64,000 bases of DNA from Spirogloea muscicola. Lineage: Eukaryota; Streptophyta; Zygnematophyceae; Spirogloeales; Spirogloeaceae. The stretch is from contig WELB01000018.1 in NCBI GenBank assembly GCA_009602725.1, positions 584,731-648,730 of the forward strand, read 5' to 3'. Of this stretch, positions 446 through 58,500 are shown in pieces (positions within the stretch are counted from its first letter, which is position 1; the number at the start of each line of letters is the position of its first letter). Position numbers and translations under genes: made by a program. Below the pieces are notes generated by a model that was not told the DNA's origin, searched no databases, and saw nothing but the letters and a program-made list of their open reading frames with translations.

Positions 446-652
446 GTGGCAAATCTGCCAGGCTTCAATGCTGCCGGCTCCTTCGCCCAGGTATTTCGTA
501 TGAGGCTGGCGGTCTCGTCTCAGCGCTCTTTGGCTCACGCGGTCCACATGCACGCTGGACGCGCTATGGCTGCTGCCTCAGGGTCTCGAAGGAGTGCCGC
601 TTTCCCTGCTCCGAGTTATTCTGATTTGCTGTTGCTCACTCGTGGATACTGA
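446..652 (+). mobile_element. Retroelement tail, subfamily A (ORF C-terminus ending LTRGY-stop)
   Basis: An open frame of 68 codons ends S-Y-S-D-L-L-L-L-T-R-G-Y-stop. It carries the family signature F-N-A-A-G-S, then R-M-R-L-A-V, Q-R-S-L-A-H-A-V and A-G-R-A-M-A-A-A-S-G. The 3' untranslated tail follows, with the GGGCTGGC stem-loop near 750 and the terminal GGGCG motif near 781. Other copies in the window show the same order of coding tail, about 80-100 bp spacer, and stem-loop. The protein resembles the region after the reverse transcriptase in some algal non-LTR elements; that identity is inferred. Confidence 0.6.
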
Positions 653-1624
653 GTATCGATCTGCATCACAATGTGTCTTGGTGTGTAGTTTTGTCTTTCC
701 GGGCACCGTTTTGTGGCCTTTGAGGCCTGCGGACATTGTCCATTGTTTTTTGGGCTGGCTCTGCTAGCCCATCTTCTCTCAGGGCGCGCCGTTCTCTCTC
801 AATATGGTGTAACAGTTACTATAACCACATCTTGTTCTCCGTACGCTGCCACCCGCTGCCGACGCTGCCTTCACCGACACGTGGCGGACGCTCAACAGTC
901 GTGAATGAGGTCATTGCGAAATGCATTGAATTGCGTTGAATCAGGTCATTGAAATAACTGCGCCCAAAAGAAGGAAGGAAGAAGTAGCATTTCTTCCACG
1001 TTTCTCCGGGCTCCTTTGGACTTACGCATTCATTGTTGGCTGGCTTTTCCGAGCCCTTGCCCCCTTGGGAACAGCTGCTTCTTCCAGAGGGGCGATGGCT
1101 GTGAAAGGCCAGCCCAATAAATACGTTAATGAGGTCTGAAGGTGCCAGAAGTGCGCAAAGCCCAAAAGCGAGGACCCGTATAGGAAGAAGAGTACTCACT
1201 GAGCTCGGAGGCTCTATGACTATGCTTCACAACCTGCGATGTGGCTGCAGAAGAGCATCCTACTGACCCTACTGACCATTGACGCAGCTTGGTCGACGTC
1301 TGGGGCGCCAAGCGCGCTCGCCGGGGCTCTCCCTATGAGAGGGGCTCTTTCCCAATAGCCAACAGTCTCGCAGGCAGATCTTATTGATTCCTTTCATTGC
1401 GCTTTCCGGCACCTTCAGACCTGTCCATTTCTTTTGGGCTGGTCTCTCACAGCCATCAAACGTCTGCTTCTTTTGGGCTGGCCTTTTACAGCAGCACACA
1501 CAAAGCAGACGAAGTGTTGAGACTGAAGTTGCTTAATTCCAGATCACGCCGTACTGTCACACAACGAAGGCGCAATCAAATGATACGGCACAATGGTGAT
1601 GGAGGCCAACCTGGATGCATGGGT

Positions 1625-1960
1625 GTGACAGAAAGGCGCGCGGTGCGCGCATGAGAATGAAAGGGAGGCTAAGTCGAGCCTCACAAAGTCCTGGTAACGG
1701 GGCAATAAGCTGGCTAAGGGGTTCCCTCGTAAACCCACGAGTTAGCACAGAAATATCCGACAAGCTAAGCTGAGGAGCCAGAGCACCACCACGCAAGCCA
1801 TGCGCCTGGCCTAGTGCGCGCTCAGCACGCTGGTGTGTCGCGAGTGCCTAGGAGCGCTGTGTACTTAACGGAAGCTGCACACCATAGCAAGCATTTACTG
1901 CTTGCGGGACACTAGAATGCCCTAAGCTACCCGCCCGACTACGTCGGCGGGCATCGACAG
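1625..1960 (-). mobile_element. Retroelement tail, subfamily C
   Basis: Reads on the minus strand as L-S-L-S-D-I-S-V-L-T-R-G-F, the subfamily C version of the conserved C-terminus. It is followed by a 3' tail ending in GCGCGCACCGCGCGCC near 1637. The DNA aligns closely by eye with the copies at 5740-6160 (-), 46930-47290 (-) and 48440-48760 (+). The final stop codon of the family is not kept here, so this is a decayed copy. Confidence 0.6.
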
Positions 1961-2556
1961 AACGAAGGAGCAACTGGGAATCGTGGCTGTCACTTGTGCT
2001 AGACGGCCCCCATGCAAGGCGTGTCGAAGCTGGCCTTCACCCCTGGCGGGGGGCTTGTCGTGCAATACGTGGCGGTGGCTTATTGATGTTTACCTGTCCA
2101 AGATTGCTGACCTAGCTGGACGCATAGCTCGAGCTGTTATACTTCTGAACCGAAAATGATGTCAAAGATGGGGACCTTCTCCAACCCATGTCAAGGTTGA
2201 ACGCTCGCGTTGTGATCGTGTGTACAATGACGGCGGAACAACGACAAGGGCCAGGACCCACGCATGACGCCTACCTCCACTTTTATCTTCTGAGCCGCAA
2301 CGAAGTAAACCAATCAGAAAGAGCACCTTGACCCCCAACAAGGACCGTGTAATGGGGCGCTAAAAAAGGGGTTGTGTGTTTCAGCGCTTTTCGTCCTTTT
2401 TTCATTCTCTCTGTTTCGAGAGCAGAGCTCATTCAAAGGAGGCGAGGACTGTGAAAAGCAAGCCTGAATTAAGTTGAAAGGTCCAGAGGGGCCTGAAGTT
2501 GCTGAAACACACTATTATGCAAGTACCATGTAGGATAAGCACCTAGTAACCTCTAG
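1961..2556. other. No gene seen
   Basis: Nothing coding is recognised between the subfamily C fragment and the next element fragment. A weak minus-oriented copy of the short retroelement tail lies near 2440-2470. The rest shows no repeat or RNA gene that can be supported by reading. Confidence 0.4.
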
Positions 2557-2781
2557 TTAGCAGCCGAAGTCAGATAGACTAGCCGCCGGAAAGCAGTCCC
2601 CTTGACGAAAGCCAGAGGCTGCAGAGAGAGCATCGAGCAGTTTTTTCTGGTCACTGGTGCAGAGCACTCTGCTTGTGTTGGCGAGGACCTTGTGCCGTGC
2701 AATGTGCACGGAGATTTGCTGCAGCGCCCAGAAGTTCGTCTTGTTCCCCTCCAGGAGGAACTCCCGGTGCTCAGTGCGCAT
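2557..2781 (-). mobile_element. Unassigned ORF ending in the subfamily A signature
   Basis: This 74-codon minus-strand frame ends A-A-S-G-F-R-Q-G-D-C-F-P-A-A-S-L-S-D, the same block as in the copy at 6495-6749. It lacks the L-T-R-G-Y end. The upstream half (T-E-H-R-E-F-L-L-E-G-N-K-T, then K-V-L-A-N-T-S) is not found in the other copies and reads like unrelated coding sequence. It could be a host exon joined to an element tail, or a more diverged element. Function unknown. Confidence 0.4.
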
Positions 2782-3159
2782 GTAGGTGTCGCTGCACGCC
2801 AGCTGCTCTGAAGGGCCCTACAGGGGGCTGCGGCATTGCAGAAGACTGGACTGCTTTGGACGAGCTCTTTTCCTTGTTGCTCAAGCTTGTCATGCCACAG
2901 GACGTCGATTGCCATATAATATTGATTGTCAGATGGACACAAATAAATCACCGACGGTATATCGCACGACAAGCTGCGGTTGGGTGCTCCTAATTTTCCG
3001 GCGCAGGCCTGCCAGGTGCCGACTCGTCGGCAAGCAGGCGGGTTGAGTCAGCAGGCAGCACCCCACTCTGCATTTCTGGCGGGCAGGGAAGGGTGCCGTG
3101 TCTACAACGAGCGCCTGGCCCGGTCAGCCTAGCGGGTTGACCCCCCGTCATCAGAAAGC

Positions 3160-3345
3160 TGGTCGAGCGTTAGCTGGTAGCACACGAGCTTGTCGATTGT
3201 CGTCCCGGTATTCGGGCATCAATTAGCGACCTCTATGTGCTGACTCGTGGTTACTGAGCGGGTCAGCTTAGCAGCAGGTGATGTACATTTGTCAATGTGC
3301 TTACCTTGTACTTGGCCTCACAGGCCCTCCATCTTTAATAAAATA
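3160..3345 (+). mobile_element. Retroelement tail, subfamily B
   Basis: The DNA near 3210-3258 encodes I-R-A-S-I-S-D-L-Y-V-L-T-R-G-Y-stop. It is followed by the subfamily B 3' tail, whose stem is built on TTGGCC...GGCC. A one-base insertion upstream puts the A-G-R-A-L-A-G block in another frame, so the copy is broken. It is a near match to 4136-4600. Confidence 0.6.
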
Positions 3346-4135
3346 CTCCATTTCCCGTTGATACCCCGGAAACACTCAGACGGCGTCCGCCACGTCGGGG
3401 CACGGTGAGAAGCCCGCCAGCCGGGTGGGCCAGAATTAAGAAAAAATATTGTGAGCCAGATTAATGAAGGAATCTTACTATTAGCCAGCCCAAAGGAATG
3501 TACAAGTTCTGAAAAGGCCGGAAGGCGCCAAAACATGTGAGTACTCTCGTGACTACTTTCATGGATTTTGCGAGTGAATGCTCAATGAACTCTAGTCAGC
3601 AAGTGCACATCAGAATGACTAGAGGGCCGAAAAGCGTCGCCCTGTCAAAAGCCGGAGGCAGCGGCCAAGGTGCAGCCTACCCGCCAGCAGGTGCACGGCA
3701 AAAGACAAGGACCGCTGCAGGAGAATGGCAAGGCGCTATGACAGAACACGTAGCCGCCGTGTATCCTGCCTCTGTCTTTGAAAGCGCACTGATTGTTTTG
3801 TACTTACTGCTCTACGATATGACCAACCCATCCAGACCTTTATTGCCATCACGCCTGGCGGTGGTCCTCGATTCGTACAACTAGCTGCAAGTTAGTCCGA
3901 CTTGCGGCTGCGGATTCGGGGTTACTTAGATCCTGTTCGCTGGAGCCACTTGCATAGCTGTGTGGTCTTAGCCCCTTTTCGGCCCTTAAGTAATTGTCCA
4001 CTTTTTGCGGGCTGGCTTCTTACAGCCCTCGCCTTCTTCGAAGGAGCCCCTATTTTTCCTTCAAAGGAAGGCGAAGGCTGTGAGAGGCCAGCCCAAAGGG
4101 AATAAACAAGGTCCGGAAAGGGCCGGCATCAGTCA

Positions 4136-4600
4136 ATGACGTGGTCGCAACATGGTCATGATGGACACCTACGACCCTCAGAACTCCCGCAGCGATCATC
4201 TCCTACCGGCGGCCATCCCCACACATTCGGCTGCATGGGCCCCCGCTTTCACACCTTGCTGGAGAAGATTGCAAGCTTGGGATATGCACGTCGTGAGGAT
4301 ATGCTTCCAGCTCAGCTGGGCATGCCGGCAGCCTTCTTGTCGTTCTTGCGATGTCGAGTATCAGTTTGTCTGCAGCGAGCTCAGGCTCATGCATTGCATC
4401 AAAAAGCTGGTCGAGCCTTAGCTGGTAGCTCTAGAGGTTGTCGAGTGCTGTCCGGTATTCGGGCATCAGTTAGTGACCTCTATGTGCTGACTCGTGGTTA
4501 CTGAGCGGGTCAGCTTAGCAGCAGGGTGACGTACATTTGTCAATGTGCTTACCTTGTACTTGGCCACACATGGCCCTCCATCTCTTAATACACTCTCCTT
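4136..4600 (+). mobile_element. Retroelement tail, subfamily B, longest open copy
   Basis: One open frame of 122 codons stops at 4502-4504. It carries G-P-R-F-H-T-L-L-E-K-I-A-S-L-G-Y, then R-V-S-V-C-L-Q-R-A-Q-A-H-A-L-H, A-G-R-A-L-A-G and S-D-L-Y-V-L-T-R-G-Y. The 3' tail follows to about 4600 with the GGCC-acacat-GGCC stem. The copy at 56933-57395 is close in protein and DNA, which supports coding constraint in the recent past. The block F-G-C-x-G-P-R-x-x-x-L-L corresponds to V-D-V-H-G-A-F-G-x-x-W-L-x-L-L in subfamily A. Function inferred as the end of a retroelement polyprotein. Confidence 0.65.
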
Positions 4601-4815
4601 TCCTTCTCAGAACTTGGTCCCAACTGCTGAGGAGGCCGGGCACGCGGTCGCCAAGAATGCAGTCGCCAAGGAGAACAAGTCTGCGGACCATCACACAGGA
4701 AGCAGGTCTGTCGTTTCTTCTGATCTCGACTTTTCAGATGTGTCGAACAATCTTGAAGGCGCATTGAGAATTGACTGCATCCTCGCCTCCAAGGGGCTGC
4801 TTCAGGTCAACAACT

Positions 4816-4845
4816 CCGTGATATCATCAACCGTGATATCATCAA
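4816..4845. repeat. Tandem repeat, 15 bp x 2
   Basis: Two perfect, adjacent copies of CCGTGATATCATCAA. Small and of no evident function. Confidence 0.8.
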
Positions 4846-5499
4846 CCAGGACTGGAGGCCTTCAGGTTGGTCTTCTAGGGTGGTGACGGCTGGGCGCGCC
4901 CATGCCGATCAATCTGACGCCCAGTTTGCACCACTTTCACATGAATCACGACCTTTCATCACCGTCCTTTTGGGTCAGCCTATCTACGACCATTGCACCC
5001 TCTTGAGAGCTTCTTGCCTTCTGCAGTTTTGGGCTGGCCTCACACAGCCATTGCCTCATCATAGTGGAAGCTTCTTTTCCTGCAGCTAACAATGAGCAGC
5101 CGCTTCTCGTATTGTGCAAAGAGATCCCTATCATTGGCCCATCGGCTCCTGTGGCTGTGCTTTGGCTCTCAACTCAGCCTGTCCGGTTATACGTGCTCAC
5201 TCGTGAGTACTGCAGCCAGCTACGGCCGTGCCCTCCTTCCCTAAACCCTAAGTCCCTCTTAGTCAGAAACTCCTGCAGCTTCGGCCTTGCCTTGGCAACT
5301 CTTGACCAGCTTATTTATGCTTTGTGTAGCCCCATTCTGTGCGCTTTCCGCCTTGTTCTGCAAGAACAGAAAGATTGCCTCCCTCATTTCACAGGCAGCG
5401 CGCGCCTCCTTATCCTATGCCTGATCAGAAAACTAATCTTCTAGTCCTGCATGGGAAGGAAGGCGCGCGGTGCGCATGAAATTGGAAGGGAGGAAACTT

Positions 5500-5720
5500 C
5501 GTGCTATTGATGCTGCCTCTGGGTCTCGTTGCGGTGCCTCTTTTCCAGCTGCAAATTACTCCGACTCGCTGATGCCAACCCGGGTTACTAAGCTCCCTCC
5601 CGCTATCGTCTCGTGCATAGCTGTGTGGTTTAAGCGCCTTTCGGCTTTCGGCTCTTTGGACCTCGTCCATTTTTTTTGGGCTGGCCTTTCTCAGCCACCT
5701 TTTACATTGGGCGCGCTTTC
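5500..5720 (+). mobile_element. Retroelement tail, subfamily A, decayed
   Basis: Encodes A-A-S-G-S-R-C-G-A-S-F-P-A-A-N-Y-S-D-S in line with the family C-terminus, but the last codons are shifted and the stop is lost. The 3' tail follows with TTTTTGGGCTGGCC near 5670 and the start of the stem. A pyrimidine-rich 3' end is visible before 5735. Confidence 0.5.
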
Positions 5721-5739
5721 TACTTTAACTCGAGCCTTA

Positions 5740-6160
5740 CAAACGTCCTGGTAACAGGGCGATGATCCCTGTTACCATTGGGCGAGCAATTTCATTCAAT
5801 GAGCTGGCTAAGGAGAGGAAGTGCTCGCCCATAGAGCTGGCTAAGGGGACACTGATATCCTCGAGTGAGCACATACCTATCTGACAAGCTAAGCTGAGGA
5901 GCCAGACCACCACCACGGAAGCCGTTAGCCTGGCCTGATGCACGCCCAGCACGCAATGTGCTTACCTTTGTATTTGGCCTCACAGGCCCCTCAGCTCTTA
6001 AAAAGAGAAACACACTCCTCGCTGGTGCATCGCGAGTGCCTCGGAGCGCTGCAGACTCAATGAAAGCCGCATTCTATAGCAAGCAACAATGGCTTGCTTG
6101 ACGCTAGGAAAGCCCTGAGCTACCCGCTCAACAACGTAGGCGGGCATCGACATGTTGTGG
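5740..6160 (-). mobile_element. Retroelement tail, subfamily C, carrying nested insertions
   Basis: Reads on the minus strand as R-M-R-L-S-L-S-L-Q-R-S-E-A-L-A-M-H-Q-R and later L-S-L-S-D-R-Y-V-L-T-R-G-Y. The body is interrupted by at least two younger pieces. A subfamily B 3' end lies at about 5953-6012 (+), where intact copies read straight through. A 20-bp piece of the subfamily A 3' end lies at 5814-5833, flanked by 13-bp direct repeats. The nesting shows that A and B were active after this C copy landed. Confidence 0.65.
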
Positions 6161-6419: not shown

Positions 6420-6439
6420 GGACCAACCGGTGGGCGACG

Positions 6440-6749
6440 ATTTGTTTCCCTTGCAGTCGACGTACACGGGGCCTTTGGCGCAAAGTGGCTCGACTTGCTT
6501 CACCGCCTTGCGCAGCAGGCCGCGGCCCGCCGCCACGGGCAGCAGGGCGAGCAGCCCGGCTTCAATGTCGCCGGGTCCCTCGCGCAGGTCTTCCGCATGC
6601 GGTTGGCCGTCTCGCTTCAGCGGTCCCTTGCGTTCGCAGTCCACTTGCGCGCAGGCCGAGCTTTGGCGGCGGCCTCCGGCTTCCGTCAGGGCGACGTCTT
6701 TCCCCCGGCTAGCTACTCCGACTTGCATCTCCTGCCTAGATGTTACTGA
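6440..6749 (+). mobile_element. Retroelement tail, subfamily A, with the upstream VDVHGAFG block
   Basis: The frame reads V-D-V-H-G-A-F-G-A-K-W-L-D-L-L-H-R-L-A from about 6458, then G-F-N-V-A-G-S-L-A-Q-V-F-R-M-R-L-A-V and A-S-Y-S-D-L-H-L-L, stopping at 6747-6749. It is the copy that shows most of the conserved domain in one frame. The hydrophobic pattern with a later R-x-R-x-S/A-V-x-L-Q-R helix recurs in all three subfamilies. A reversed 3' tail (stem-loop near 6836) lies just downstream. Confidence 0.6.
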
Positions 6750-6939
6750 GCGTCCTCTGGCTGATGTCTTCGTCCTAGTCCAAAGGCATGGACTGTAGTG
6801 TAGCTCCAGAAAGTGCGCGCCCATAGAGAAAGGGGGCCAGCAAAGCCAGCCCAGAAAGGATGGACAATGTCAAAAGCCGGAAAAAACAAAAAACACACAG
6901 CTAGGCAGCGAGAGAATAAGACACGACGAAATCACAGGA

Positions 6940-7200
6940 AGCTCAATACCCCCGGGTGAGCAACATCAAGTCGGAGTAGCTCGACGCAGCCAGTTGGTGG
7001 TAGAAGAAAGAAAGAAAGAAGTAGAAGGGCTTCGTATCTGACATCTAGTATTCAGGCATCGATTAGCGACCTTTGTGTTTTGACCCATGGCTACTGAGCG
7101 GGTCAATCTGCTGTCGGTTATGTACGTCATTAAGATGTGCTTGCCTTTGTACCTGGCCATTTGGCCTTCGTTTGTTTCAAATACACGAACATTCTATTTG
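6940..7200. mobile_element. Composite head-to-head pair: A tail (-) joined to B tail (+)
   Basis: At 6956-6995 the minus strand encodes S-Y-S-D-L-M-L-L-T-R-G-Y-stop. At 7050-7098 the plus strand encodes I-Q-A-S-I-S-D-L-C-V-L-T-H-G-Y-stop, followed by a B-type 3' tail to about 7195. A GAAA microsatellite lies between them. The same arrangement with similar connecting DNA recurs at 52612-52890, so the pair has probably been copied as a unit. Confidence 0.55.
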
Positions 7201-13346: not shown

Positions 13347-22698
<9,352 letters not shown>

Positions 22699-25431: not shown

Positions 25432-25842
25432 TCAGGACACGGTGATGGTGCCGGCCATGCCAGCGCCCTGGTGGGGCTCGCAGTAGTACTCGTATGTGCC
25501 CGCCTTGCTGAGGGTCACCTTCACCTCCTCGCCAGCGGCGTTGACGAGGTCGCCGTGGGAGATGGCGTTGGCGTCGACGCCGGAGGGGACGGCGTCCTCG
25601 TCGAAGACGATGTTGTGGGGGAAGCCGGCGTTGTTCTTGAACACGATGGTCTCGCCGGCCTTGACGGAGAGGGAGGCGGGCTCGAAGGCGAGGGAGCCGT
25701 CGTCCTTGCCCATCTTCACGGTCGCGGCGTTGGCGCCGGCGGCGAGGAGGAGCGTGGCGCCGGCGGCCACGAGGGCCTTGCCAGCGTCCCGGGCCAGCGA
25801 CGCGCGCGGCGCGGCGAGGCGCACGTNGCTAGGAGCAGCCAT
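25432..25842 (-). CDS. PETE: Plastocyanin precursor
   Basis: Blue copper protein of the thylakoid lumen that carries electrons from cytochrome b6f to photosystem I. Single exon, 136 residues from ATG at 25842. A 39-residue presequence has a basic start and a hydrophobic Ala/Leu stretch ending A-N-A, which fits a chloroplast transit plus lumen signal with cleavage before A-T-V-K-M-G. The mature part is 97 residues. All four copper ligands are present: H37 (F-P-H-N), C82, H85 and M90 in [11 protein letters not shown]. The two-residue shortening relative to land-plant numbering is known in green algae. One ambiguous base at 25827 leaves residue 6 undefined. The frame is open upstream, but that extension is proline-rich repeat-like sequence and unlikely to be used. 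Confidence 0.96.
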
Positions 25843-26235
25843 GGAGGGCTGTGGCACTGGGCCAGAGTAAGTGGGGGAGGAGGGAGGGGGGCACGCTTGC
25901 GGCAGAGGCGCGGGAAGCGGATGGGCTGCTGGCGGGGAGGGAGGGGAGGCCCCCCTGCTGGCGGGGAGCGGAGGCAGGCGCTGGCAATGTGACTGGGGGC
26001 CCGCCGGGGAGGGGGGTGGAGGAGGGGGGGCGGGGCCTGGGACAGGGCCGCCATTGGGTGCCGCCGGATGAGGGGCCCCCGGCGCCCGCCCGCGTGGCGC
26101 GCTCCCGACCCCCGGCCCGCGGAGCGGGCTTCCTGGCATGATGGCGTGTCAGCTTCGTATTGGTCACACCTGCTGCTGAAATCTTCTTGTAGCAAATCTA
26201 AAATGTAAATGCGCTTCTTCTGGGCGAGCACTTTC

Positions 26236-27035: not shown

Positions 27036-28190
27036 TGGAGTACTTTAGAAGAGCTCACCACCTCCTTACAGTGTCGGCCTGATGAACGGCGATTTTGCCA
27101 TAGACGAAGCACGAATTGACAAGAGTCGCGGTCCGATAATTGTGATGCACTGCGATCGCGAGAATGGAACCACCTTGAGATAGTATTGTCGCCCAGCAAA
27201 TATCCTCAACCACAATATTACATAAGATACTCCAGTATCATCCGTCTACAATTCATTGGGCCAATTTCTACGCTGATATGAAGCACACACTACTTGATAA
27301 CAAGAGGGTTTGATGTCAGGTAAGTGAATATGTGATTGCCTTGCTCTGTCTATTTAGGAGTTCCTCTAAACCAAGAGCATTCCAATCAGAAACTTTCTGA
27401 GCCCCTTCATGCTTCTTACCTTCGAACTTCGTTCTTTGTGTTTCTGGGCTGGCCAATCACAGCCATCGCCCTCTACTGGAAGAGTCTTTCTCTCTTACAC
27501 AGTGTACGGCTGATTTTGGCCTCCCTTTCATTCCAAGCGCGCCGCTCGCCTTTCTCCCTTTTGCATGAACAAAGTATTGGGTGATCTTGCATCCAATTAA
27601 AATCATACGCACCGCCGGCTTTCTCCATTTCTGCTGGTGCTGCTCCAAATACGGCAAATGGCTCGTACAAGGTGGGGGCAATGGGTGTGGTAGAGAAGGT
27701 GCTCGGCTGCTGACTAGGGGCTATTGAGCCCCCATTTTTTGAGGTAAACACTCTAGTATCTCACTTCAATATCTGTATTATCTAGCCTTTCCGGCCCTTT
27801 CGACATTGTCAATTGTCTTTGGGCTGGCCTTTCACAGCCATCGCCCTTTCTGGTTAGCTTCTTTGAAAGGGAAGGTACGCGGTGCTCATGAAATGGGAAG
27901 GGAGGCCAAGCCGAGCCAGAAAACTGTGCAAGCGAAAATCTGTACTCAAGATATGCGACTACACAATGTGAAGCCTGTCATGCGCAAGGGCGTCGATGCG
28001 AGCTGGCGTCGATTGGCTGATATGGAGACAAATGCTGACATATACAAGCTATGTGCTACACAAACCGAACAAGAAAGTGGTTGCGTTGGCCCGGCTGACA
28101 AGAAAGCAGTCCGTCAGGAGGCCACCGTCACCAATCGTCCATCTCACGCAATGTCATCAAGGAAAACCTAGAGGTCCAAATCTGACTTTG
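27036..28190. other. Repeat-rich, no host gene seen
   Basis: Contains plus-oriented retroelement 3' tails at about 27425-27490 and 27795-27850, and the GGAAGGGAGGCCAAGCCGAGCC tail segment of subfamily C near 27897. No exon chain is recognised. A run of ten or more C residues lies near 28196. Confidence 0.45.
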
Positions 28191-30978: not shown

Positions 30979-31080
30979 GCAATGTTGAGTCAACAAAGAA
31001 GATTCGACCAACAGCAAGAACAGCTCTGAAATGTAAGTGACAGAAGCAAAGCACTTCAAGAGATCACAAAAGCCAATCAC

Positions 31081-32275
31081 TCGAGCCGGAGCGAGCGGCC
31101 CAAGCCGGAGCGAGCGGCCCAAGCCGAGCAGTCCGCTTTGCAAGTCTCGCCCTTCTGCCGCGAGCCACGCCTGCGCCATTGCCGCGCCTTGGAAGCGTAA
31201 AGCCTTGGGCAGGAGCCGCAGCAGCTAGTGAACCTTAGCTCGGACCCGCGTGCCGACTGCGACAAGTCGTGGTGACTCTGTGGTGAGCAGCCTTGATATT
31301 GTGCTGCCTATTGCGAGAGTAGACAACTACAAATCGTTTGGCAATCACTGACCATGCACAAGTCAACAATCTTGTGGACAGTGTTACATATTTGCTTGTG
31401 TACACATTCTGGCGTGTACTGCTTTGCGTGTACATTCCCGCATCTTGCATCTTTGCAATATTGGGTGACTAAAGCCGAGTTACCTTGTCGAGCCGTTATC
31501 CGACCATTGGTTACAAAAGCCGAGTGACCTTACCAACTGTTACAAAAGCCGAGCTACTTTCTATTGGTTACTTAAGCCGAGTCCGACTGCTACCTTATTA
31601 CTTGCAAAGCGGACTCCGGACTCCTCAGTCTAGGCTTGGACTCAGACTCATTTTGCTAGACTCGAGTGACCTTTCCAACTGTTATAAGAGCCGAGTTACT
31701 TTCTACTGGTCACTAAGCCGAGTCCGATTGTTACTTATCACTTGCAGGAGCGAGTAATAAGGTAACAATCGGACTCGGCTTAAGTAACCAATAGAAAGTA
31801 GCTCGGCTTTTGTAACAGTTGGTAAGGTCACTCGGCTTTTGTAACCAATGGTCGGATAACGGCTCGACAAGGTAACTCGGCTTTAGTCACCCAATATTGC
31901 AAAGATGCAAGATGCGGGAATGTACACGCAAAGCAGTACACGCCAGAATGTACACAAAAGCAAAGATGTAATACCTTGTCCACAAGATTGTTGACTTGTG
32001 CAAGGTCAGTGATTGCCAAACGATTTGTAGTTGTCTACTCTCGCGATAGGCAGCACAATATCAAGGCTGCTCACCACAGAGTCACCACGACTTGTCGCAG
32101 TCGGCACGCGGGTCCGAGCTGAGGTTCACTAGCTGCTGCAGCTCCTGCCCAAGGCTTTACGCTTCCAAGGCGCGGCAATGGCGCAGGCGTGGCTCGCGGC
32201 AGAAGGGCGAGACTTGCAAAGCGGACTGCTCGGCTTGGGCCGCTCGCTCCGGCTTGGGCCGCTCGCTCCGGCTCG
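31081..32275. repeat. Large inverted repeat, 523-bp arms, about 149-bp spacer
   Basis: 31081-31603 and 31753-32275 are reverse complements with few differences. The outer ends carry a tandem CCGGAGCGAGCGGCCCAAG unit. The inner part has motifs AAAGCCGAGTTAC and AAAGCCGAGCTAC repeated. The spacer contains another direct copy (about 85 bp, 31661-31747) of the inner segment 31525-31612. The left arm abuts the gag element and is probably its LTR; the right arm would be an LTR of a second copy in opposite orientation. Confidence 0.8.
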
Positions 32276-37879: not shown

Positions 37880-38190
37880 GAATGCTCGGCTTGGGACGAC
37901 ACTGTGCCACGGCCGAGAAGCAGTCCCTGGCTCACGCAGTCCACTCGCGAGCTGGCCGCGCTATGGCTGCTGCATCGGGGTCTAGGCGGAGTGCCTCTTT
38001 CCCAGCTCCTAGTTACTCCGACTTGCTGCTGCTCACTCGTGGTTACTGAGCTTCCCTCTGCATCGTCTCGTCTCTTGCTGTGTAGTTTCTCTTTTCGGCA
38101 CCTTTTCTTTGGCTCTTTGGATTCTGTCCATTCTTTTCGGGCTGGCATTTGCCAGCCCCGCTTCTCTATGGGCGATCAAATTAGTCTTTC
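37880..38190 (+). mobile_element. Retroelement tail, subfamily A, with full 3' stem-loop
   Basis: The frame stops at 38047-38049 after S-Y-S-D-L-L-L-L-T-R-G-Y. It includes Q-S-L-A-H-A-V-H, A-G-R-A-M-A-A-A-S-G-S-R-R. The tail then runs through TTTGGATTCTGTCCATTC, the stem GGGCTGGC...GCCAGCCC and CTCTATGGGCGA to about 38175. It is the best local template for the short 97-bp insertion at 39257-39353. A second tail of a related type follows at 38200-38285. Confidence 0.7.
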
Positions 38191-38603
38191 GTAGTACTTG
38201 TTGTGTGCTCCAGCGTTTTTTGCCCCTTCCGGATTATTATTTTCTTATGGGCTGGCTATTCACAGCCCTCGCCCCCTTTGGAAGAGAACAGACCCCTTCG
38301 GAAAGAAAGTGCTCGCCCATAGAGAAGAGCTCTTTGGAAGAGCTCACTTTTCTTAACCAAGAGTCTTGACAACTGTCATGCCACAGGGCGTCGACTGCCA
38401 GATAGCGTCGAGAAGTCAGATTAGTACGGAAGCAGGCAACAAATCAGCCTCGCATGGTGGGGTACTCAATGAAGTGAGGTGAAAAGTAGGTCTACGAGAA
38501 TTAAGTAGCTAAATCGATATTGTAAGAAAACAACAGAACAGAAACTAATAGAATAGGAGTAACCAACAGATGATGTGGTTGGCAGTAGAGAACTTGGAAT
38601 TGA

Positions 38604-39779: not shown

Positions 39780-40140
39780 TAGCGGAGGAGAGTGTATTAA
39801 GAGATGGAGGGCCATGTGTGGCCAAGTACAAAGGTAAGCACATTGACAAATGTACGTCACCCTGCTGCTAAGCTGACCCGCTCAGTAACCACGAGTCAGC
39901 ACATAGAGGTCACTAACTGATGCCCGGATACCGGACGGCACTCGACAACCTCTAGAGCTACCAGCGAAGGCTTGGTAGGTAGCGGTAGAAGCGAGTCTCG
40001 GGCTCCACTGGCCCGGGGAACCCAGACGGGCCAAATGGCCCACCCCAACGAGCACTTCTCTCAACGAACAATGTAATTCTTTACCTGACCAAGCATAAAG
40101 AAAAGCGCGGCCGAATTGACTGGTGGCTGGGAGAAGCCAG
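39780..40140 (-). mobile_element. Retroelement tail, subfamily B
   Basis: On the minus strand the frame ends G-I-R-A-S-V-S-D-L-Y-V-L-T-R-G-Y with stop at 39882-39884. The B-type 3' tail follows down to about 39790 (GAGAGTGTATTAAGAG in plus reading). Upstream sequence diverges after the S-S-R-G-C-R-V block, so the copy is 5'-truncated or rearranged near 39960. A reversed A-type tail follows at about 40115-40160. Confidence 0.6.
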
Positions 40141-40881
40141 CCCAAAAGGAATGGACAAGGTCAAGAGGAGCCGCATGGCGCAGAAAGCAGGGGACTAAGT
40201 GCTAAGACGACAAGGAGGCATAAAGGGTGTGGAGGGCCGGGGCCGAGCAATTCGCTTGGTCAAGTCTCTCCCTTTGGCTGTTGCCGACCTTTGCCGCCGC
40301 CGCTGCCGCTGCCGCCGCCGCTGCTGGTGCCGCTGCCCAGTAAGCGTAGCGCGCGCAACCAGGGCTACGCCAAGAAGGCGTGGGCACAGGCACAGGACAC
40401 AGACCTGCAGAGAGCCTTACTCCGACGAGCCCCGCATCCGGTCGCGTCAGACCGGGCGCGCACTTGGTAAGCCGCGAGCATCGCGACCTTGTGCGAAACT
40501 GCCTCCAAGCCTAATCTTGGACCTTCAGAGAGCCTTGGCAAATATACGCAAGCGATTCTCATTGTGCTCCATTGCATCTACTGCATTGTGAGCTTGTTTC
40601 ATTCCGATCTCGCCATTGTAACTGTCTTTTGTGGGAGTTTGTCCTTTGGACATTTCCCGGCTCGGTTCGGTTACCTGGGTTAGTGCCCAAAACGTTCGCT
40701 GTCACTGTCACTACATTGATCCGTGGTTACTGTTCCGATTATCGATCCGTTACTGTTCTTTGAAACCCTCTCTGAGGGTACTCCGTTGACAAAGGAAACT
40801 CTCTTTGAGGGTACTTTTTGGCTCGTTCTGGTTTCTTGTTCACACTTTGCTTGTGGCTTGTCCTTCCGATCCCGTTTTACT

Positions 40882-41810
40882 TGACCAAGCGAATTGCTCG
40901 GCCCCTTGGCGATTGAACTGTGCGTACGATTCCGAAAGTAGTCAACAGGTACGACCTCCTTGCCAGCATCCAGAGCCATGTATGGGAAGTAGTTGGGAGG
41001 TCGTTGCTGCATGTCGATGGAGCGTTGGATCATCTGGGCTGGGGCGAGGTTAGTCCAATGAACCCTCTTCCGGTCAGCTAGGGATCCCAAAATTGCGTCC
41101 AGAATCGTGTAAGGCCCCAGGATGTCACAAATTGTTTGGAAGTCGAACCTGGCAAAATTGTGGGTCTCCTTGGGCTCTACGTTCTCAATATCATAACCAA
41201 ATTGGAGAAGCCGGGCGCCGGGCGCGTACGTTGTGCATGAATTTCACCAAGGATATGAATAATCCACTGGAGGGCTGCCTGAACCCTACTGCCTCAGGAC
41301 ATCCAAGAAGCTGCCAAGCCCGAATTGCTCAGACGTTTGCCCAAAGTGGACCTCCTCATTTCGGGAATTCCTTGTCAGGGCTTCAGTGCTCTCGGTTCCA
41401 GCAGAGGGTTCAGGCAGCCCTCCAGTGGATTATTCATATCCTTGGTGAAATTCATGCACAACGTACGAGCTCGGCAGCTTCTCCAATTTGGTTATACTGT
41501 TGAGAACGTAGAGCCCAAGGAAACCCACAATTTTGCCAGGTTCGACTTCCAAACAATTTGTGACATCCTGGGGCCCTACACGATTCTGGACGCAGCAATT
41601 TTGGGACCCCTAGCTGACCGGAAGAGGGTTCATTGGACTAACCTCGCCCCAGCCCAGATGATCCAACGCTGCATCGACATGCAGCAACGACCTCCCAATT
41701 TCTTCGCATACATGGCTCTGGATGCTGGCAAGGAGGTCGTACCTGTTGACTACATTCGGAATCGTACGCACAACTTCAATGGCCAAGGGTCCGAGCAATT
41801 CGCTTGGTCA
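40882..41810. mobile_element. Inverted pair of cytosine-5 DNA methyltransferase fragments
   Basis: Arms 40882-41287 (-) and 41405-41810 (+) are inverted copies of about 406 bp around a 117-bp spacer. The plus copy with the spacer reads V-D-L-L-I-S-G-I-P-C-Q-G-F-S-A-L-G (motif IV with the catalytic Cys), then E-N-V (motif VI), and R-K-R-V-H-W-T-N-L (motif VIII region). The spacer holds motif IV, so only the plus copy has it. The minus arm repeats the rest. Motifs I, IX and X are not seen. The end CCGAGCAATTCGCTTGGTCA recurs a third time near 40246. Charophyte retrotransposons carrying such methyltransferases have been described, which is the likely source. Confidence 0.75.
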
Positions 41811-41843: not shown

Positions 41844-41849
41844 GTTATT

Positions 41850-42690: not shown

Positions 42691-42696
42691 GCCACC

Positions 42697-46930: not shown

Positions 46931-47420
46931 GACCGATAAAATGGGACAAGCGCGTGGTGCACAATCTAAATACAAGCAACACATTGTGAACGAAATTGAA
47001 AGGAAGGCCAATTCGAGCCTTACAAAAGTTCTAGCAATGGGTCAATAAGCTGACTAAGGGGGACACTAGTAGCCTCGAGTGAGCACGTACATATCTGACA
47101 AGCTAAGCTTAGGAGCCAGACCGCCACCACGGAAGCCATTAGCCTGGCCCAGTGCGCGCCCAGCACGCTGATGTATCGCGAGTGCCTAGGAGGGCTGCAG
47201 ACTGAATAATAGCTGCATTTTATAGCAAGCAACGATTGCTTGCGGGACGCTAGAATGTCCTAAGCTACCCGCCTGACTACGTCGGCGGGCTTTGACAAGT
47301 TGTACCAGGCGATGGAGGAGGGAAGACCACTTCAATCCGTAGCCGCCATAAATGTCCGTGGCGGATGGGAAGAAGAAGTCGCCTCGCCCCGGGGTGGTCT
47401 TTACTATGTCTCTGCTTCTT
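46930..47420 (-). mobile_element. Retroelement tail, subfamily C, longer copy
   Basis: On the minus strand, D-I-Y-G-G-Y-G-L-K-W-S-S-L-L-H-R-L (about 47300-47370) is the subfamily C version of V-D-V-H-G-A-F-G-x-x-W-L-x-L-L-H. It is followed by A-I-V-A-C-Y-K-M-Q-L and, in another frame, L-S-L-S-D-M-Y-V-L-T-R-G-Y. The 3' tail ends near 46940. Frames are broken. Confidence 0.6.
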
Positions 47421-47949
47421 CTCCTCCGCATGATGCGTAGCCCAAACTGGCACAGTCGGCGTGGGTGCCCCTGGTTGGATTGTATCGATAAGAACAACGT
47501 CAAGGAGGAGACGAGGCTCGGAGGGGTGGAAATTACATCCAGACGTCTGATGTAAGGTCTGCCGCAATCCTGGAGTGCCGGCATGATGCCCGGCACCTCC
47601 ATGGCCGAATGGTAACCTGCCTCGCGCATAAAGCCATACAAAGCGTCACTTAGAAAGTTGTGGGGGGCATTACGTTCACCTCCCTCCACACATCGAAGCA
47701 CGTGAGCTGCCAACGAGATCTCGTCCTCCGAACGATGGACATTCACACTGGCGGATGCTCGCCAAACAAAGTGGGGGAAAGGCCAAGTTGGTGGTGTACG
47801 GCCTTCCGAAGGAGGTCGTCGGAGAGCAAAGGGACTCGTAGATTGGCAAAGCGTTGAGCCACTCCAACGCCCCCGGAGAGCTTATTGAGTGAAGACGAAG
47901 TTGGAAGGGCGACGTTCAGGTGCTCTCGTGGTCGGCGCGGTTGTACGCA

Positions 47950-48340
47950 GCCAGCAGCAGCGGTAGTAGTGGTCCATTTGTCATGCTTGGCGTTGACGTC
48001 ACTTGGCGACCATGTCTTTGACTGTGCGGTTGAGCCATTCCGCGAGCACGTCTGTTTGCAGGTGGTAGGGCGTCATGAAGGTCAGCCAGACCCCCCAGCT
48101 CATTGCACACCCGCTCCATAATTTGGCCGTTGAATTTGGTGCCGAGGTCGTCAGGAGCCGCCGGGGACACATGTGGTGACACAACACGTCGCGGATGAGG
48201 AACTTGACCACGCTGTCGGCGGTGGCGTTTGGCAAGGCTGCCCCGATCACCCAGCGGCTCAGGTATTCGGTTGCCAGCACAACGTACTTGTTGCCCCGTC
48301 CACGGGCATCGACAAGTTGTGCCCGGCGATGGAGGCAAGA
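47950..48340 (-). pseudogene. LTR-retrotransposon integrase core fragment (frame-broken)
   Basis: The minus strand reads R-G-N-K-Y-V-V-L-A-T-E-Y-L-S-R-W-V, then R-R-L-L-T with a frame change into D-L-G-T-K-F-N-G-Q, and later T-P-Y-H-L-Q-T-D-V-L-A-E-W-L-N-R-T-V. The second Asp and the Glu of the D,D,E triad are visible; the first Asp region is degraded. This is the Ty3/Gypsy integrase pattern. It is joined head-to-head with the subfamily C copy at 48340. Confidence 0.7.
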
Positions 48341-48760
48341 CCGTTTCATCCCATGGGCCATGGACATTTATGGCGGCTACAAAACGAAGTTGTCTTTCCT
48401 CCTCCATCGCCGGGCACCACTTGTTGATGTCCGCTGACATAGTCGGGCGCGTAGCTTAGGGCATTCTCGTCCCGCAAGCAATCGTCGCTTGCTACAAAAT
48501 TGCGGCTGTCATCAAGTCTGCAGCGCTCCCGGGCACTCGCGATACACCAGCGTGCTTGGCGCGCAGTAGGCCAGGCTAATGGCTTCCGTTTGGGTGGTCT
48601 GGCTCTTCAGCTTAGCTTGTCAGATATGTATGGCTACGTCGTGGTATTGTTGTCCCCCTTAGCCAGCTCGTTGCCCCGTTATTAGGGCTTTGGAAAGGCT
48701 CGAATGTTGGCCTCCCCCTTCATCTTCATGCGCACCGCGCGCATAATTTCCGACCCGGCG
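48340..48760 (+). mobile_element. Retroelement tail, subfamily C
   Basis: Reads I-P-W-A-M-D-I-Y-G-G-Y at about 48350, R-L-S-S-S-L-Q-R-S-R-A-L-A-I-H-Q-R and L-S-L-S-D-M-Y-G near 48620. The 3' tail ends at the GCGCACCGCGCGC motif near 48731. It aligns with the minus copies at 46930 and 5740. Confidence 0.6.
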
Positions 48761-49389: not shown

Positions 49390-49600
49390 CAGTGGCTCTG
49401 GTCAGGGGACCCACTTCCAGGAGCCTAGCATCTCTGATCTGCGGCTGCTTAGCAGGGGCTACTGAGTGATTCGTCGCTGCTTTGTGCTTGTTTTTCTTAG
49501 CGCTTCCCCTGGCCCCTCGTGCTTTGTTCATCTTTTTTGGGCTGGCTTTTCCAGCCCCTATCCTCAATGGGCGAGCACTTTCTTCTTCCAGTGTCTGATA
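49390..49600 (+). mobile_element. Retroelement tail, A-like
   Basis: The frame ends S-I-S-D-L-R-L-L-S-R-G-Y with stop at 49463-49465. The 3' tail has GGGCTGGCTTTTCCAGCCCC near 49540 and ends GGGCGAGCACTTTCTTC near 49585. The closest relative is at 50160-50345. Confidence 0.65.
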
Positions 49601-51165: not shown

Positions 51166-51169
51166 GAGG

Positions 51170-52600: not shown

Positions 52601-52611
52601 CGCTAGACTCT

Positions 52612-52890
52612 ACATTCAGTATCCACGGGTGAGCAACAGCAAGTCAGAATAACTCGAAGCTGGGAAAGAAGCACTCCGCCGAGACCCTGAGGTGGCAGAA
52701 GGGCTTGGATTTAGAAAGAAATTTGAATCTGCCATCTGGTTTTCAGGCATCGATTGGCGACCCTTATGTGTTGACCCGTGGTCACTGAGCGGGTCAAGCT
52801 TGCAGTGGGTGATGTAGGTCATCAGATGTGCTAGCCTTTGTACTTGGCCATTTTGGCCTCCGATTGTTGTTTCAAATACACGAACAAGAA
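52612..52890. mobile_element. Composite head-to-head pair: A tail (-) joined to B tail (+), second copy
   Basis: The minus strand at 52616-52700 encodes S-Y-S-D-L-L-L-L-T-R-G-Y-stop. The plus strand at 52738-52788 encodes F-Q-A-S-I-G-D-P-Y-V-L-T-R-G-H-stop, followed by a B-type tail ending TTTCAAATACACGAAC near 52885. The connecting DNA and 3' tail align with those at 6940-7200. Confidence 0.55.
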
Positions 52891-53114: not shown

Positions 53115-53122
53115 TGACGTCA
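53115..53122. promoter_or_regulatory. TGACGTCA site upstream of the first DJ-1-like gene
   Basis: A perfect TGACGTCA palindrome about 200 bp before ATG 53323, in a position suited to a bZIP-bound promoter element. No expression evidence is available. Confidence 0.3.
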
Positions 53123-53322
53123 TCAGCCACGGGGATCCTGGAGCCCGCCACCTGGTTGCCACGTAGGACGACGCAGTGACGTCGCGCCCGAACCGCCCGG
53201 CACTGCCACACTGCACCCTCGCCTACGCCCAGCCCCCCTCCGCCCGGCACGCCGTGAACTGCGCCGGCAGCGGCGGCGGAGGCGGCGCAGGCGGCGGCGG
53301 CGGCGGCGGNGTCCCGCCAAGC

Positions 53323-55203
53323 ATGGCGCAGTTGACTCCGGCGGCGGCGGCGGCGGCGACGACCGCCCGAGCGGGCGCCGGCGCGAATGCCGGCGGCGCC
53401 GCCGCCAGGGGCAAAGTCCTCGTCTGCTGCTCCAGCGCTGACCACATCGATCTGCAGGTCACATGTTCGACTCTGCGCTCGGCCTTGGTCGCCATGGATT
53501 ACCGTCGCTCGGCTTCTTTGTGGCACCTCGGCGACTGATATCTGAGGAGGCCGTTGAAGCCGAGCTGACGGCCGGCTGACGGTGGGCTCCCGCTAATATA
53601 TCGCTTATTGTGCAGAGCGGCAAGCACCAGCCGACGGGGTTCTTCCTCAAGGAGCTCGGCCGGCCGCTCATCCGGCTCCTCGAGAACAACTACCAAGTGG
53701 TGGTGAGAGCAAAGCTCGGCTGCTCGGCTTCCAATTCCGTTGAGCTTGATTGCCAGTATCTTTTGGTTAGTCCTTGTGCGCCGCGACGGTCTTGGTCATT
53801 AACCAACGACGCTGAAGCCTGCCGTGGTTGCTGGCGCCGTCTCCAGTTCGCCAACCCGAAGGGCAACGCGCCCGCCATGGACCCCATGTCCAACAGCAAG
53901 CTGTGGTTCAACCCCTTGCACTGGGGCGAGAAGGACGAGGAGGTGAAGATGCTGGACCGCATGCACGCGGAGGGCAACCTGGACCGCCCCCGCCCGTTCG
54001 CGTCCATCTCCGACGAGGAGCTGGAGTCCTTTGATGGCATCCTCGTTCCGGGAGGTTGGTCCACCATCATAGTACCCTCGTTGACATAAGGACCTTTGAT
54101 AGAGCTGCACTCAGGCCGGAGCTGCTCGGCAAGGGCAGCGCCAGCCTCTCTGAGTATGCCCAACTGAGTCTGACTAGTGGTGTGCTACGCTCCTTGCCTC
54201 CTGCGTTCTTGAAGGCCATGCTCCGATGGCGGACCTGTGGAATGACCCCAACCTGGGCCGCATTCTCCTCCACTTCCACAACCGCGCCAAGCCGACCGGT
54301 CAGCTATCTTCACTACGTTCCCAGTCAAGCTTTCACCGAGATCATTCTGTGTGCTGCGTGCCGACCCGTAAAGCACGACTCCCGCACACCGGCTGGTGCA
54401 CTGATGTCCTGAGCTACATCTGTTATCGCATGAAGTGTACTGAGTAGGTGCCACGATATCCCTGTGGGTGCTGGGCAGGAATGATTTGCCACGCTCCCAT
54501 TGCGCTGCTGTCCACAAAGCAGGTGCAGCCGAATGCACCGTGGGCATATGCAGGGTACAAGATGACGTGCTACTCGAACGTCGAAGAGAAGCTCAACGAG
54601 CTGATGTGGATGAGCAATCTCCCTTACCTTGTGACTTGACATTCTCTTGACCTTTCTGCTGAGTAGCACACCATGTGCCGGACTAGTACAGCGCTTGAGA
54701 CCCTTGCTGAGCCGCAGGAAAGCAAGACAAGGTGACTATGTCCAGATTTATTAGCGGAGTTCAATGAGACCGTATCCTCGTCAGCCCTTAACAGGGAGCA
54801 GTCTGATTTTTACAGGTGGAGACAGAGTTGAGGAACAATGGCGCCATAATGGTGGAGGCTCTTCCCATGATTCCCAAGGTCACGGTTGACAGGGAGCTCA
54901 TTAGTGCTCAGGTCCGGGCTGACCCACTCCTTGCAACTGCATGCAGACTTGGGAGGCTACTTATATCAGCCGAGGCAGCCTCAGGGTGGTTGCTGCTCTC
55001 AAGCAGATTGTTGCTAGAGTATCCAGTGAGGAGCCTGCTTGTGCTCAGGATCATGAATTTGACATCTTACTTTTGTTATGAGACAGGGCCCGACCTCTGC
55101 CGATCAATTTGGAGCAGAATTTGTGAAACACCTGAGCGACAAGAGCCAGACCCAGTTGCAGGGGCAAGCTTTTGCACCGCAGGCACGCATGTCTGTAAAT
55201 TGA
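53323..55203 (+). CDS. DJ-1/PfpI-like protein, copy 1
   Basis: Class I glutamine-amidotransferase-like fold of the DJ-1/PfpI superfamily; relatives act as glyoxalases, chaperones or proteases, so the activity is not settled. Seven exons in phase: 53323-53457, 53616-53702, 53847-54054, 54215-54298, 54479-54630, 54816-54911, 55087-55203, giving 292 residues. First strand G-K-V-L-V-C-C-S-S, then T-G-F-F-L-K-E-L-G-R-P, F-A-N-P-K-G-N-A-P, V-P-G-G-H-A-P-M-A-D-L and the nucleophile elbow M-I-C-H-A-P (C175). The frame is open upstream to M at 53176, which could add an organelle-targeting segment through a GGC-rich repeat holding an ambiguous base. The C-terminus is 16 residues longer than in copy 2. 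Confidence 0.88.
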
Positions 55204-55209
55204 TTAAGT

Positions 55210-56930: not shown

Positions 56931-56932
56931 AT

Positions 56933-57400
56933 GTGGGAGGTGCTGAGCAGAAAAAGCTCCGACACTACTCAGACTACCCCCGCAGTGACCACCTCCTCCC
57001 GGCCGCAATCGACACTTTCGACTGCTTGGGTCCTCGCTTCCATACCCTACTCGAGAACATAGCGAGTCTGGGATATGCACGACGCGAGGATATGCTCCCA
57101 GCCCAGATGGGTATGCCGGCAGCCTATCTGTCATTTCTGCGACGTCGAGTGTCAACCTGTCTGCAACGAGCTCAGGCGTATGCTCTGCATCAGAAAGCTG
57201 GTCGAGCCTTAGCTGCTGGCACAAGAGCTAGTCAATTGCCGTCCGGTATTCGAGCGTCAGCTAGCGACCTCTACGTGCTGACTCGTGGTTACTGAGCGGG
57301 TCAGCTTAGCAGCAGGTGACGTACATTTGTCCAATGTGCTTGCCTTTGTACTTGGCCACACATGGCCTCCCCATCTCTTAATATACACGCATTTTCCCCG
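56933..57400 (+). mobile_element. Retroelement tail, subfamily B, long open copy
   Basis: A 120-codon open frame stops at 57293-57295. It reads A-I-D-T-F-D-C-L-G-P-R-F-H-T-L-L-E-N-I-A, R-R-R-V-S-T-C-L-Q-R-A-Q-A-Y-A-L-H, A-G-R-A-L-A-A and A-S-D-L-Y-V-L-T-R-G-Y. The B-type 3' tail follows to about 57395. Protein similarity to 4136-4504 is high over the whole length, with mostly conservative changes. Confidence 0.65.
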
Positions 57401-57689
57401 CAAGTGCACTGCGTGAGCCTGGGAACGCTGACATTAGGTGGAGAGCCGCATGCGGAACCCCACCTGGACAAGTGACCCGGCATCGAAACCGGGGAGCTCA
57501 CCTTGCTGCCCCTGACTGCAATTGATGGCCCGCCGTGAAAGCCACTGCAGGTCTGGCCACCAACTGCCAAATGCCCCATGCCTGAAAGACATGAACAAGG
57601 TTTGAAGGGACAGGAAAGCGCAGAGAGCCCAGCCAGAAGGAGCGCGTAGAAGAAAGCGGCTGTGGAAAGCCAGCCAGATACATACAAGT

Positions 57690-57860
57690 GTTTATGACGG
57701 AGCCACAGGCTAGGCAGACAGGGCGCCCTTAGTACCCCCGTGTCAGCAGTAGGAAGTCAGATGAGCTGAGGGGGAGGAGGAGCAACCCCGCTGCGCAAGC
57801 CAGAGGCTGCTGCAAGGGCGCGACCAGCGCGGCGGTGCGTAGGAGGGAGCAGCTTCTGGG
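57690..57860 (-). mobile_element. Retroelement tail, A-like
   Basis: On the minus strand, L-S-S-S-D-F-L-L-L-T-R-G-Y ends at a stop at 57729-57731. The reversed stem-loop remnant (GCGGCTGTGGAAAGCCAGCC) follows near 57656. Confidence 0.55.
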
Positions 57861-58107
57861 GACAGTGGCCACGTGTGTGTGTCGTCGGAGTCTGCCACCC
57901 CCGTGACCTGGCAGCCACGTCGGCGCGTCCAGCGAAGCACGGGCCACGTCGGCAGCGCCACGTCCGAGCCCGCGCTCGCCATCTGGGAGCCACGTCGCGC
58001 AGCCCGCCTGTATGGGCCGCGGCCAAGTGGCACCCCCGCACCCCCCCACTTCTCTCCCCCTGAACTGAATAACGAATAACACACGAACCTTATTCCATCG
58101 CCTCTGA

Positions 58108-58190
58108 ATGAAGAAGTGCCCGCCCATAGAGAAGAGGGGCTGGCAAAGCCAGCCCAAAAACAATGGACAATGTCCAAAGCCAAAGAATGC
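58108..58190 (-). mobile_element. Short retroelement 3'-end insertion
   Basis: Minus-strand stem GGGCTGGC-TTT-GCCAGCCC with CTCTATGGGCGGGC, close in sequence and length to the 97-bp insertion at 39257. GAATG occurs on both sides and may be the target-site duplication. Confidence 0.6.
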
Positions 58191-58329
58191 ACCTGGAGAG
58201 CGGCTGGATCGACAAGAGCGGCCTTCACACCGCTTCTTCATGATCAGCAGCCGCATTCCTTTCCCCCTTGAGTAATTTGTAGCTGCTTTCTTTCTTTGTG
58301 TGCTTTGGTTTCTTAGCGCTTCCTCTGGC

Positions 58330-58500
58330 TTCCACTGACCCGCCGCATGCTCACTAGGGGAGTATTGAGCACCCAATGGCCACTTGAGTCGCAGTGTGCT
58401 TTAGCGCTTTTCTGGCGCCTTCGAAATCTGATCATTATCTTTCTGAACTGGCCGATCACAGCCATCACCCTTCACTGGAGGAGTCCTTCATTCCAACCCG
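58330..58500 (+). mobile_element. Retroelement tail directly upstream of DJ-1-like copy 2
   Basis: Starts at the CTCACTAGGGGAGTATTGAG end of the coding tail and runs through AACTGGCCGATCACAGCCATC to GGAGGAGTCC near 58484. It ends about 40-55 bp before the start codon at 58539 and so may form part of the 5' untranslated region or core promoter. Confidence 0.6.

Follow-up and report, generated by a model that had tools for sequence, protein, structure and literature searches.

A stretch of 64,000 nucleotides of the Spirogloea muscicola genome (contig WELB01000018.1, positions 584,731 to 648,730 of the forward strand; here called the window) contains, on both strands, short coding fragments that end in the same peptide, LTRGY, followed at once by a stop codon. 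A first-pass annotation took them for the end of a dispersed retroelement, downstream of a reverse transcriptase (RT) that it did not see, which raises the question of which complete element they derive from. The analysis described here shows that the window contains dead copies, truncated at the 5' end, of long interspersed nuclear elements (LINEs), very probably belonging to a large group of LINEs of this green alga with a restriction-like endonuclease (RLE). Judged by domain order and motif, they would represent a known kind of element, the RLE-type (early-branching) LINE, here very abundant.

LTRGY ends in the window and in the genome

A six-frame translation scan found LTRGY 13 times in the window, 12 of them directly before a stop codon; the remaining one, at 5855-5869 on the minus strand, is followed by Q, and an LSRGY-stop is additionally found at 49454-49465. 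The whole genome (153 Mb, 471 contigs) was searched with YTNACNMGNGGNTAYTRR, the back-translation of LTRGY plus TRR, which matched at 9,619 sites (4741 + 4878), a number that comprises stops plus some TGG, as the TRR pattern takes in this codon. The reversed-pattern control matched at 18 sites (10 + 8), about 0.008 per 64 kb. Without the stop condition, LTRGY matched at 11,020 sites, with TRR next in about 87%, and this shorter pattern shows a high reversed control of its own (3,046). Among the matches listed, LTRGY-stop is written with every arginine (six), threonine and glycine codon, with five of the leucine codons and with all three stops. LTRGY and the position of the stop are conserved as protein, as the first-pass annotation had read them: the synonymous codons vary and three different stops are used, and therefore the constraint on LTRGY acts on the protein. 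In the viral and prokaryote collections (viral_contigs and genome_contigs), searched with two peptide patterns each, 23 and 596 stretches, respectively, matched a peptide pattern and no relative was confirmed.

Full-length elements and their domains

A DNA query of window positions 3900-4900 recovered copies sharing the segment from window position 4183 to about 4607 and a common 3' end (40 of 3430 candidates scored). Comparison of longer loci shows that other copies run upstream of 4183, so the window copy is truncated. These data bear on a different reading, a short non-autonomous repeat similar to short interspersed nuclear elements (SINEs), in which LTRGY would arise incidentally from a conserved RNA hairpin at the stop. 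Most copies in an initial DNA search start at query base 48 (window 4183), and a hairpin can be drawn around the family A stop; however, the shared boundary only marks where the window copy is truncated, further copies run upstream into a full RT open reading frame (ORF), and LTRGY persists although its codons vary synonymously and three different stops are used. A SINE-like origin is thus highly improbable and, for the group, is rejected by the full-length copies.

A 343-residue protein from a longer copy gave 119 listed matches, nine of which, of family A, keep an open frame of 1267 amino acids (118 of 16,866 candidates scored; this first-look count and similar ones refer to candidates, not copies). 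Full-length proteins were read on contigs C153, C87, C218 and C105 for families A (1267 amino acids), A2 (1313), B (1196) and D (1292), respectively, with frame lengths counted from stop to stop; listed open frames of 3,000-7,000 amino acids are not among these four proteins. Identities to the A protein are 77% for A2, 43% for B and 45% for D. All four proteins terminate in LTRGY, an end that is fixed across families otherwise about 43-45% identical. These identities, together with the differing tails of A, B and D, bear out the subfamilies proposed from the window fragments.

The full-length elements are about 4 kb long and contain a single ORF which encodes, in order, an N-terminal C2HC zinc finger, the RT, a C-C-H-C knuckle, an RLE motif and SDLxxLTRGY-stop. 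Pfam RVT_1 was matched in the four proteins (E values of 1e-18, 1.1e-16, 7.8e-15 and 8.5e-15) and their alignment shows an invariant YADD box at 713-716. The zinc finger residues C247, C250, H262 and C266 (Pfam zf-C2HC_2 was matched in A only, under its cut-off) and the knuckle ligands C1043, C1045, H1057 and C1061 are also invariant in all four. The putative endonuclease reads D1113-x14-D1128 and, further on, K1155-X2-(K/H)-Y1159, and every protein conserves the two aspartates, the lysine and the tyrosine; in RLEs the two acidic residues are separated by 12 to 14 positions. Protein B has the exact KX2KY, whose first K is the catalytic residue of RLEs and whose second K is less conserved (PMC5678591; this and the other publications are cited for their available parts). 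No full-length copy lacking a mobile-element domain was found among the four, all of which carry RVT_1 and the RLE motif. The proposal that the fragments correspond to the end of a non-long terminal repeat element after the RT is therefore upheld, since copies elsewhere carry the RT upstream and the RLE motif after it.

Ratios of nonsynonymous to synonymous substitution (dN/dS) were calculated between A and A2 by region: N-terminus 0.41, zinc-finger region 0.16, RT 0.11, thumb and linker 0.15, CCHC-RLE region 0.04 and C-terminal tail 0.08; these are rough values, with a dS of 0.8-1.6 that is near saturation in places. They show purifying selection on the LINE protein, as expected where copying needs a working protein. 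Loci L062 (listed frame of 818 amino acids) and L067 contain long N runs, which we suspect to be assembly gaps.

Structure of the 3' tails

The 3' untranslated region (UTR) is family-specific, about 100-140 nt long, with hairpins and without poly(A). The D copies stop sharply at one base (…GCGCGCCTTCTCTC), with 36 of 39 non-query copies ending at query base 271 and three at 272-274 (40 of 2532 candidates scored). The B copies end at about …GGCCGCGCTTTTC and the A copies at about …ACGCATT, both placed to within one to three bases.

Three hairpins in 21 A and A2 tails show 95.6% of cells paired versus at most 38.7% in slid versions, a comparison biased by the derivation of the structure from one of the 21 sequences. 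Changes on both sides of a pair were found in 18 cells versus 6.9 expected, and this value and the covariation score beat all 500 shuffles; these covarying changes track the A/A2 split and may go back to few events. Two further counts are not above the shuffles, namely pairs with both-side changes (2 versus 1.5, reached by 285 of 500 shuffles) and pair types (9 versus 10.0, reached by all shuffles), and in the second hairpin 11 of the 21 tails leave one pair open. The first A hairpin encloses the LTRGY codons and the stop. Single-sequence folding gave z-scores of -0.93 for A, -1.67 for B, -2.09 for D and -3.18 for a C-type window tail; at -0.93 the A tail as a whole is therefore not unusually stable. 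Thus, the earlier statement that each subfamily has its own tail, with stem-loops, holds for the distinct A, B and D tails and for the pairing of the A/A2 hairpins, and it is backed only in part by covariation, two of whose five measures lie within the shuffles.

LINEs which require their own 3' UTR are called 'stringent' (PMC3747384), and the elements described here look like this type. Near one LINE end (L102:115-244, minus strand) there is a match to the Rfam microRNA precursor family MIR6445, with 46.9 bits versus a gathering score of 100, which is perhaps a repeat-derived hairpin.

Insertion sites and recent activity

The A copies show a common 3' end and variable 5' ends; among six fetched copies with the full frame, five share a start near GGCTCCCCACCC and one starts later. 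Their 3' flanks are pyrimidine-rich for five to eight bases and otherwise dissimilar between copies. Pyrimidines account for 175 of 216 bases in the first eight flank positions of A, 96 of 128 in B and 118 of 160 in D (each 0 of 2000 random draws), counts that the end uncertainty of A and B could slightly raise at the first positions. In this flank set 27 of 50 A loci were anchored and 23 dropped, and three of 19 B loci were unused (N or no anchor). The preference was repeated in 50 new flanks (four of 54 were dropped for lack of anchor), with pyrimidine fractions of 0.90, 0.96, 0.94, 0.76, 0.70 and 0.64 at the first six positions. Insertion prefers pyrimidine-rich sites, without site specificity.

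A pyrimidine tract followed by AG is also the mark of intron 3' splice sites, which these LINEs might target. Of 40 pyrimidine runs in the first 62 flanks, 12 end in AG versus 11.5% in the window (p 0.0013; L038, mis-anchored among the 27 A loci, was excluded from this count), but the independent flank set gave four of 31 (p 0.48). With this failed replication, splice-acceptor targeting was rejected and is hardly credible.

Clear target site duplications of 10-16 bp were found in four of 31 A copies (score of at least 10), versus 1.1% of mismatched flank pairs, and several 3' flanks are LINE tails themselves, which indicates nested copies. The ends and flanks fit target-primed reverse transcription that has a weak site preference and often yields 5'-truncated copies.

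The 5' regions of six full-length-type A copies match L057, a full-length A element, at 1987 of 1988 bases, and most of the listed D tails are equal in score and ends. The elements therefore must have been active recently, and they may still be active.

Relationship to known elements

A profile of the four proteins, compared with solved structures, gave R2 as the best match (1.2e-8; for example structures 9nl2, 9nl3 and 9dou), ahead of L1 ORF2 (2.7e-4) and bacterial RTs (4.8e-4); this closeness of the RT is judged among solved structures only and puts R2 first only with the profile. R2 also has a single ORF with a zinc finger before the RT, a knuckle and RLE after it and KX2KY (PMC5678591). 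However, R2 inserts in 28S ribosomal RNA (rRNA) genes (PMC7650587), whereas here the flanks differ from copy to copy and the knuckle spacing is different. An R2 identity by target was rejected, as the flanks vary and 17 B flanks searched at E 0.05 gave no rRNA match. R2-like elements of cockroach without site specificity have been described (PMC7650587), so loss of target is known in the group.

Several observations weigh against an RLE-type LINE. The knuckle spacing, CX1CX11-12HX3C, is outside the CX2-3CX7-8HX4C published for RLE LINEs (PMC5678591), the P of the endonuclease PD is not kept (L or A instead), and no Myb motif was matched by Pfam up to E 1 in the four full-length proteins. The A protein alone retrieves a bacterial group II intron-type RT first (0.00029) and R2 fourth (0.00072). 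The C-terminal domain alone shows no sequence match to any solved structure (PDB) even at E 10, and because of this the putative RLE is assigned by motif, order and position. No clear target site duplication is seen in 27 of 31 A copies, and in the six full-length copies the best score, 8, is below the top score of mismatched pairs, 9.5. Furthermore, the stop-codon hairpin is absent from the minimum-energy fold of a single A tail.

Other RLE-bearing LINEs were considered. The Utopia elements of the NeSL clade, which target U2 small nuclear RNA genes, actually or ancestrally, also have a zinc finger, RT, zinc finger and RLE in one protein in the same order (PMC4640811). This identity is unlikely: the genome shows seven U2-like matches (46 of 997 candidates scored) versus 9,619 LINE ends, and the LINE 3' flanks differ from copy to copy. 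Utopia by its U2 target was rejected on these numbers, and membership of the NeSL clade is possible for elements that lack this target. In the available part of PMC4640811, Utopia is recorded for Amoebozoa, SAR and Opisthokonta, with green algae not among the hosts; oomycete Utopia is covered in PMC5348765. HERO, an RLE clade that includes many elements without site specificity (PMC4640811), is comparable by description only. The candidate placements are thus HERO, NeSL, R4, CRE or a new clade.

In green algae, Chlamydomonas relatives contain L1 and Dualen LINEs (PMC8226300; for Dualen also PMC3747384). Dualen/RandI, as here, is an RLE-bearing green-algal LINE, but it encodes both an apurinic/apyrimidinic (AP) endonuclease and an RLE (PMC4640811). 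No AP endonuclease or RNase H domain was matched by Pfam at E 1 in the four full-length proteins, whose N-terminus is low-complexity sequence with one zinc finger, and a Dualen identity is very unlikely. The Zepp/ZeppL elements resemble ours in their nested 5'-truncated copies inserted in existing copies (PMC8226300); however, Zepp is L1-type, whereas here an RLE motif is found and the ends are spread over many contigs. In literature searches for green-algal RLE LINEs, none other than Dualen was recognised among the publications listed. It is possible, if short of probable, that the elements form a separate green-algal clade of RLE LINEs with no fixed target, about ten thousand intact coding ends, several recently active families, an odd knuckle spacing and a needed free LTRGY-COOH.

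Fragments in the window and other features

Mapping of the four full-length elements onto the window gave 42 clusters with a total of 6,529 bp on both strands. Protein-level similarity (E up to 0.05) was found in 21 of the 42, which is the safe count, since among the 21 clusters seen in DNA only there are some that fall on flanking bases within the library sequences. At least 20 related fragments on both strands had been predicted, with no RT among them; both statements agree with these 21 clusters and with the absence of any window protein match overlapping the RT, even with RT-only queries at E 1. The fragments are listed in Table 1. The longest one, D-like and seen in both the scan and the mapping, is disabled by a stop and a frame change.

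Table 1. LINE fragments in the window (positions counted from its first nucleotide)
Fragment	Position	Strand	Coding end	Evidence
Family A, C-terminal domain and hairpin 3' UTR to the 3' end, 5'-truncated	4183..4607	+	LTRGY-stop 4487-4504	six-frame scan, DNA search, element mapping
Family A, 98.5% DNA identity to full-length L057	56925..57404	+	LTRGY-stop 57278-57295	scan, mapping
Family A	3149..3340	+	LTRGY-stop 3240-3257	scan, mapping
Family A	39792..39974	-	LTRGY-stop 39882-39899	scan, mapping
Family A2	7023..7188	+	LTHGY-stop	scan, mapping
Family A2	52717..52883	+	LTRGH-stop	scan, mapping
Family B, C-terminal part	6420..6750	+	mutated, LLPRCY	mapping
B-related	457..653	+	LTRGY-stop 635-652	scan, mapping
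B-related (annotated earlier at 37880-38049), GGGCTGGC hairpin tail	37891..38284	+	LTRGY-stop 38032-38049	scan, mapping, folding
B-related	3581..3736	-		mapping
Very short 5'-truncated family B copy, 3' UTR only (93% identity)	40099..40219	-		mapping
Family D-like, longest, from upstream of the CCHC region to the end	46994..47915	-	LTRGY-stop 47066-47083	
Family D-like	48333..48632	+		mapping
Family D-like	1633..1976	-	LTRGF	scan, mapping
Family D-like	5841..5953	-	LTRGY, then Q	scan, mapping
Sole fragment from upstream of the RT	2653..2836	-		2653-2799 corresponds to B residues 415-464, immediately upstream of the RT
Further subfamily, GGGCTGGC hairpin tail	49445..49465	+	LSRGY-stop	scan
Further subfamily	57729..57758	-	SSDFLLLTRGY-stop	scan
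Further subfamily	6943..6972	-	YSDLMLLTRGY-stop	scan
B-related end	52616..52681	-	YSDLLLLTRGY-stop	scan, mapping
Further subfamily, hairpin tail	27710..27727	+	LTRGY-stop	scan
Further subfamily	2543..2560	-	LTRGY-stop	scan

Coding-free GGGCTGGC...CAGCC hairpin pieces are also found, for example at 1407-1458, 5647-5719, 27785-27846 and 58137-58187; they are either tail-only LINE copies or SINEs using LINE tails, and tail-only pieces could be SINEs using the tails of these elements. The LINE protein match at 46.9-48.6 kb scores equally at contig C129:327863, with ORFs of the same size at the same positions in both loci, and looks like a recent segmental duplication.

Among the other features of the window, a large palindromic block at 31082-32275 has inverted-repeat arms (299 nt, 99% complementary; 225 nt, 96% complementary) and adjoins the ORF at 30421-31224 (minus), which we take to be LTR-retroelement-like. 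At 40919-41772 an ORF presumably encoding a DNA cytosine methyltransferase (GIPCQGFSALG) shows an inverted duplication with arms of 178, 118 and 71 nt (96-97% complementary). Host-gene-like blocks are present in two copies, at 53611-54634 and 59162-60316 (78-91% identical, spacing 5.55-5.68 kb), and the ORF at 53580-54089 presumably encodes a PfpI/DJ-1-type protein. A plastocyanin ORF lies at 25432-26148 (minus), with best matches to the solved structures 7zqe and 2plt, presumably from Chlamydomonas. Elsewhere in the genome, L043 and L044 show RVT_1 matches in frames of 1237 and 1172 amino acids, a part of which we take to be integrase-like, and six places share the same RVT_1 score; this is probably another element with recent activity, an LTR-type one outside the LTRGY group.

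Proposed mechanism and significance

From the sequences we infer a cycle in which the LINE protein would bind its own mRNA through the 3' structures and its endonuclease would nick a pyrimidine-rich site. The 3' OH would then prime reverse transcription from the fixed 3' end, as in target-primed reverse transcription, and early stopping of reverse transcription would leave many 5'-truncated copies.

Compared with the reading of the window, the analysis adds the putative endonuclease type, recent activity, copy number and the lack of a fixed target. Of the five RLE clades, four are described as mostly target-specific (PMC4640811). With about 10^4 ends, no fixed target and near-identical copies in at least two families, A and D, these LINEs would be a system for studying the loss of target specificity. 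The same group lets one ask how several families of LINEs coexist. The carboxyl end is, to our knowledge, a little-studied part of the LINE protein, and the fixed LTRGY may offer a simple lead to this part.

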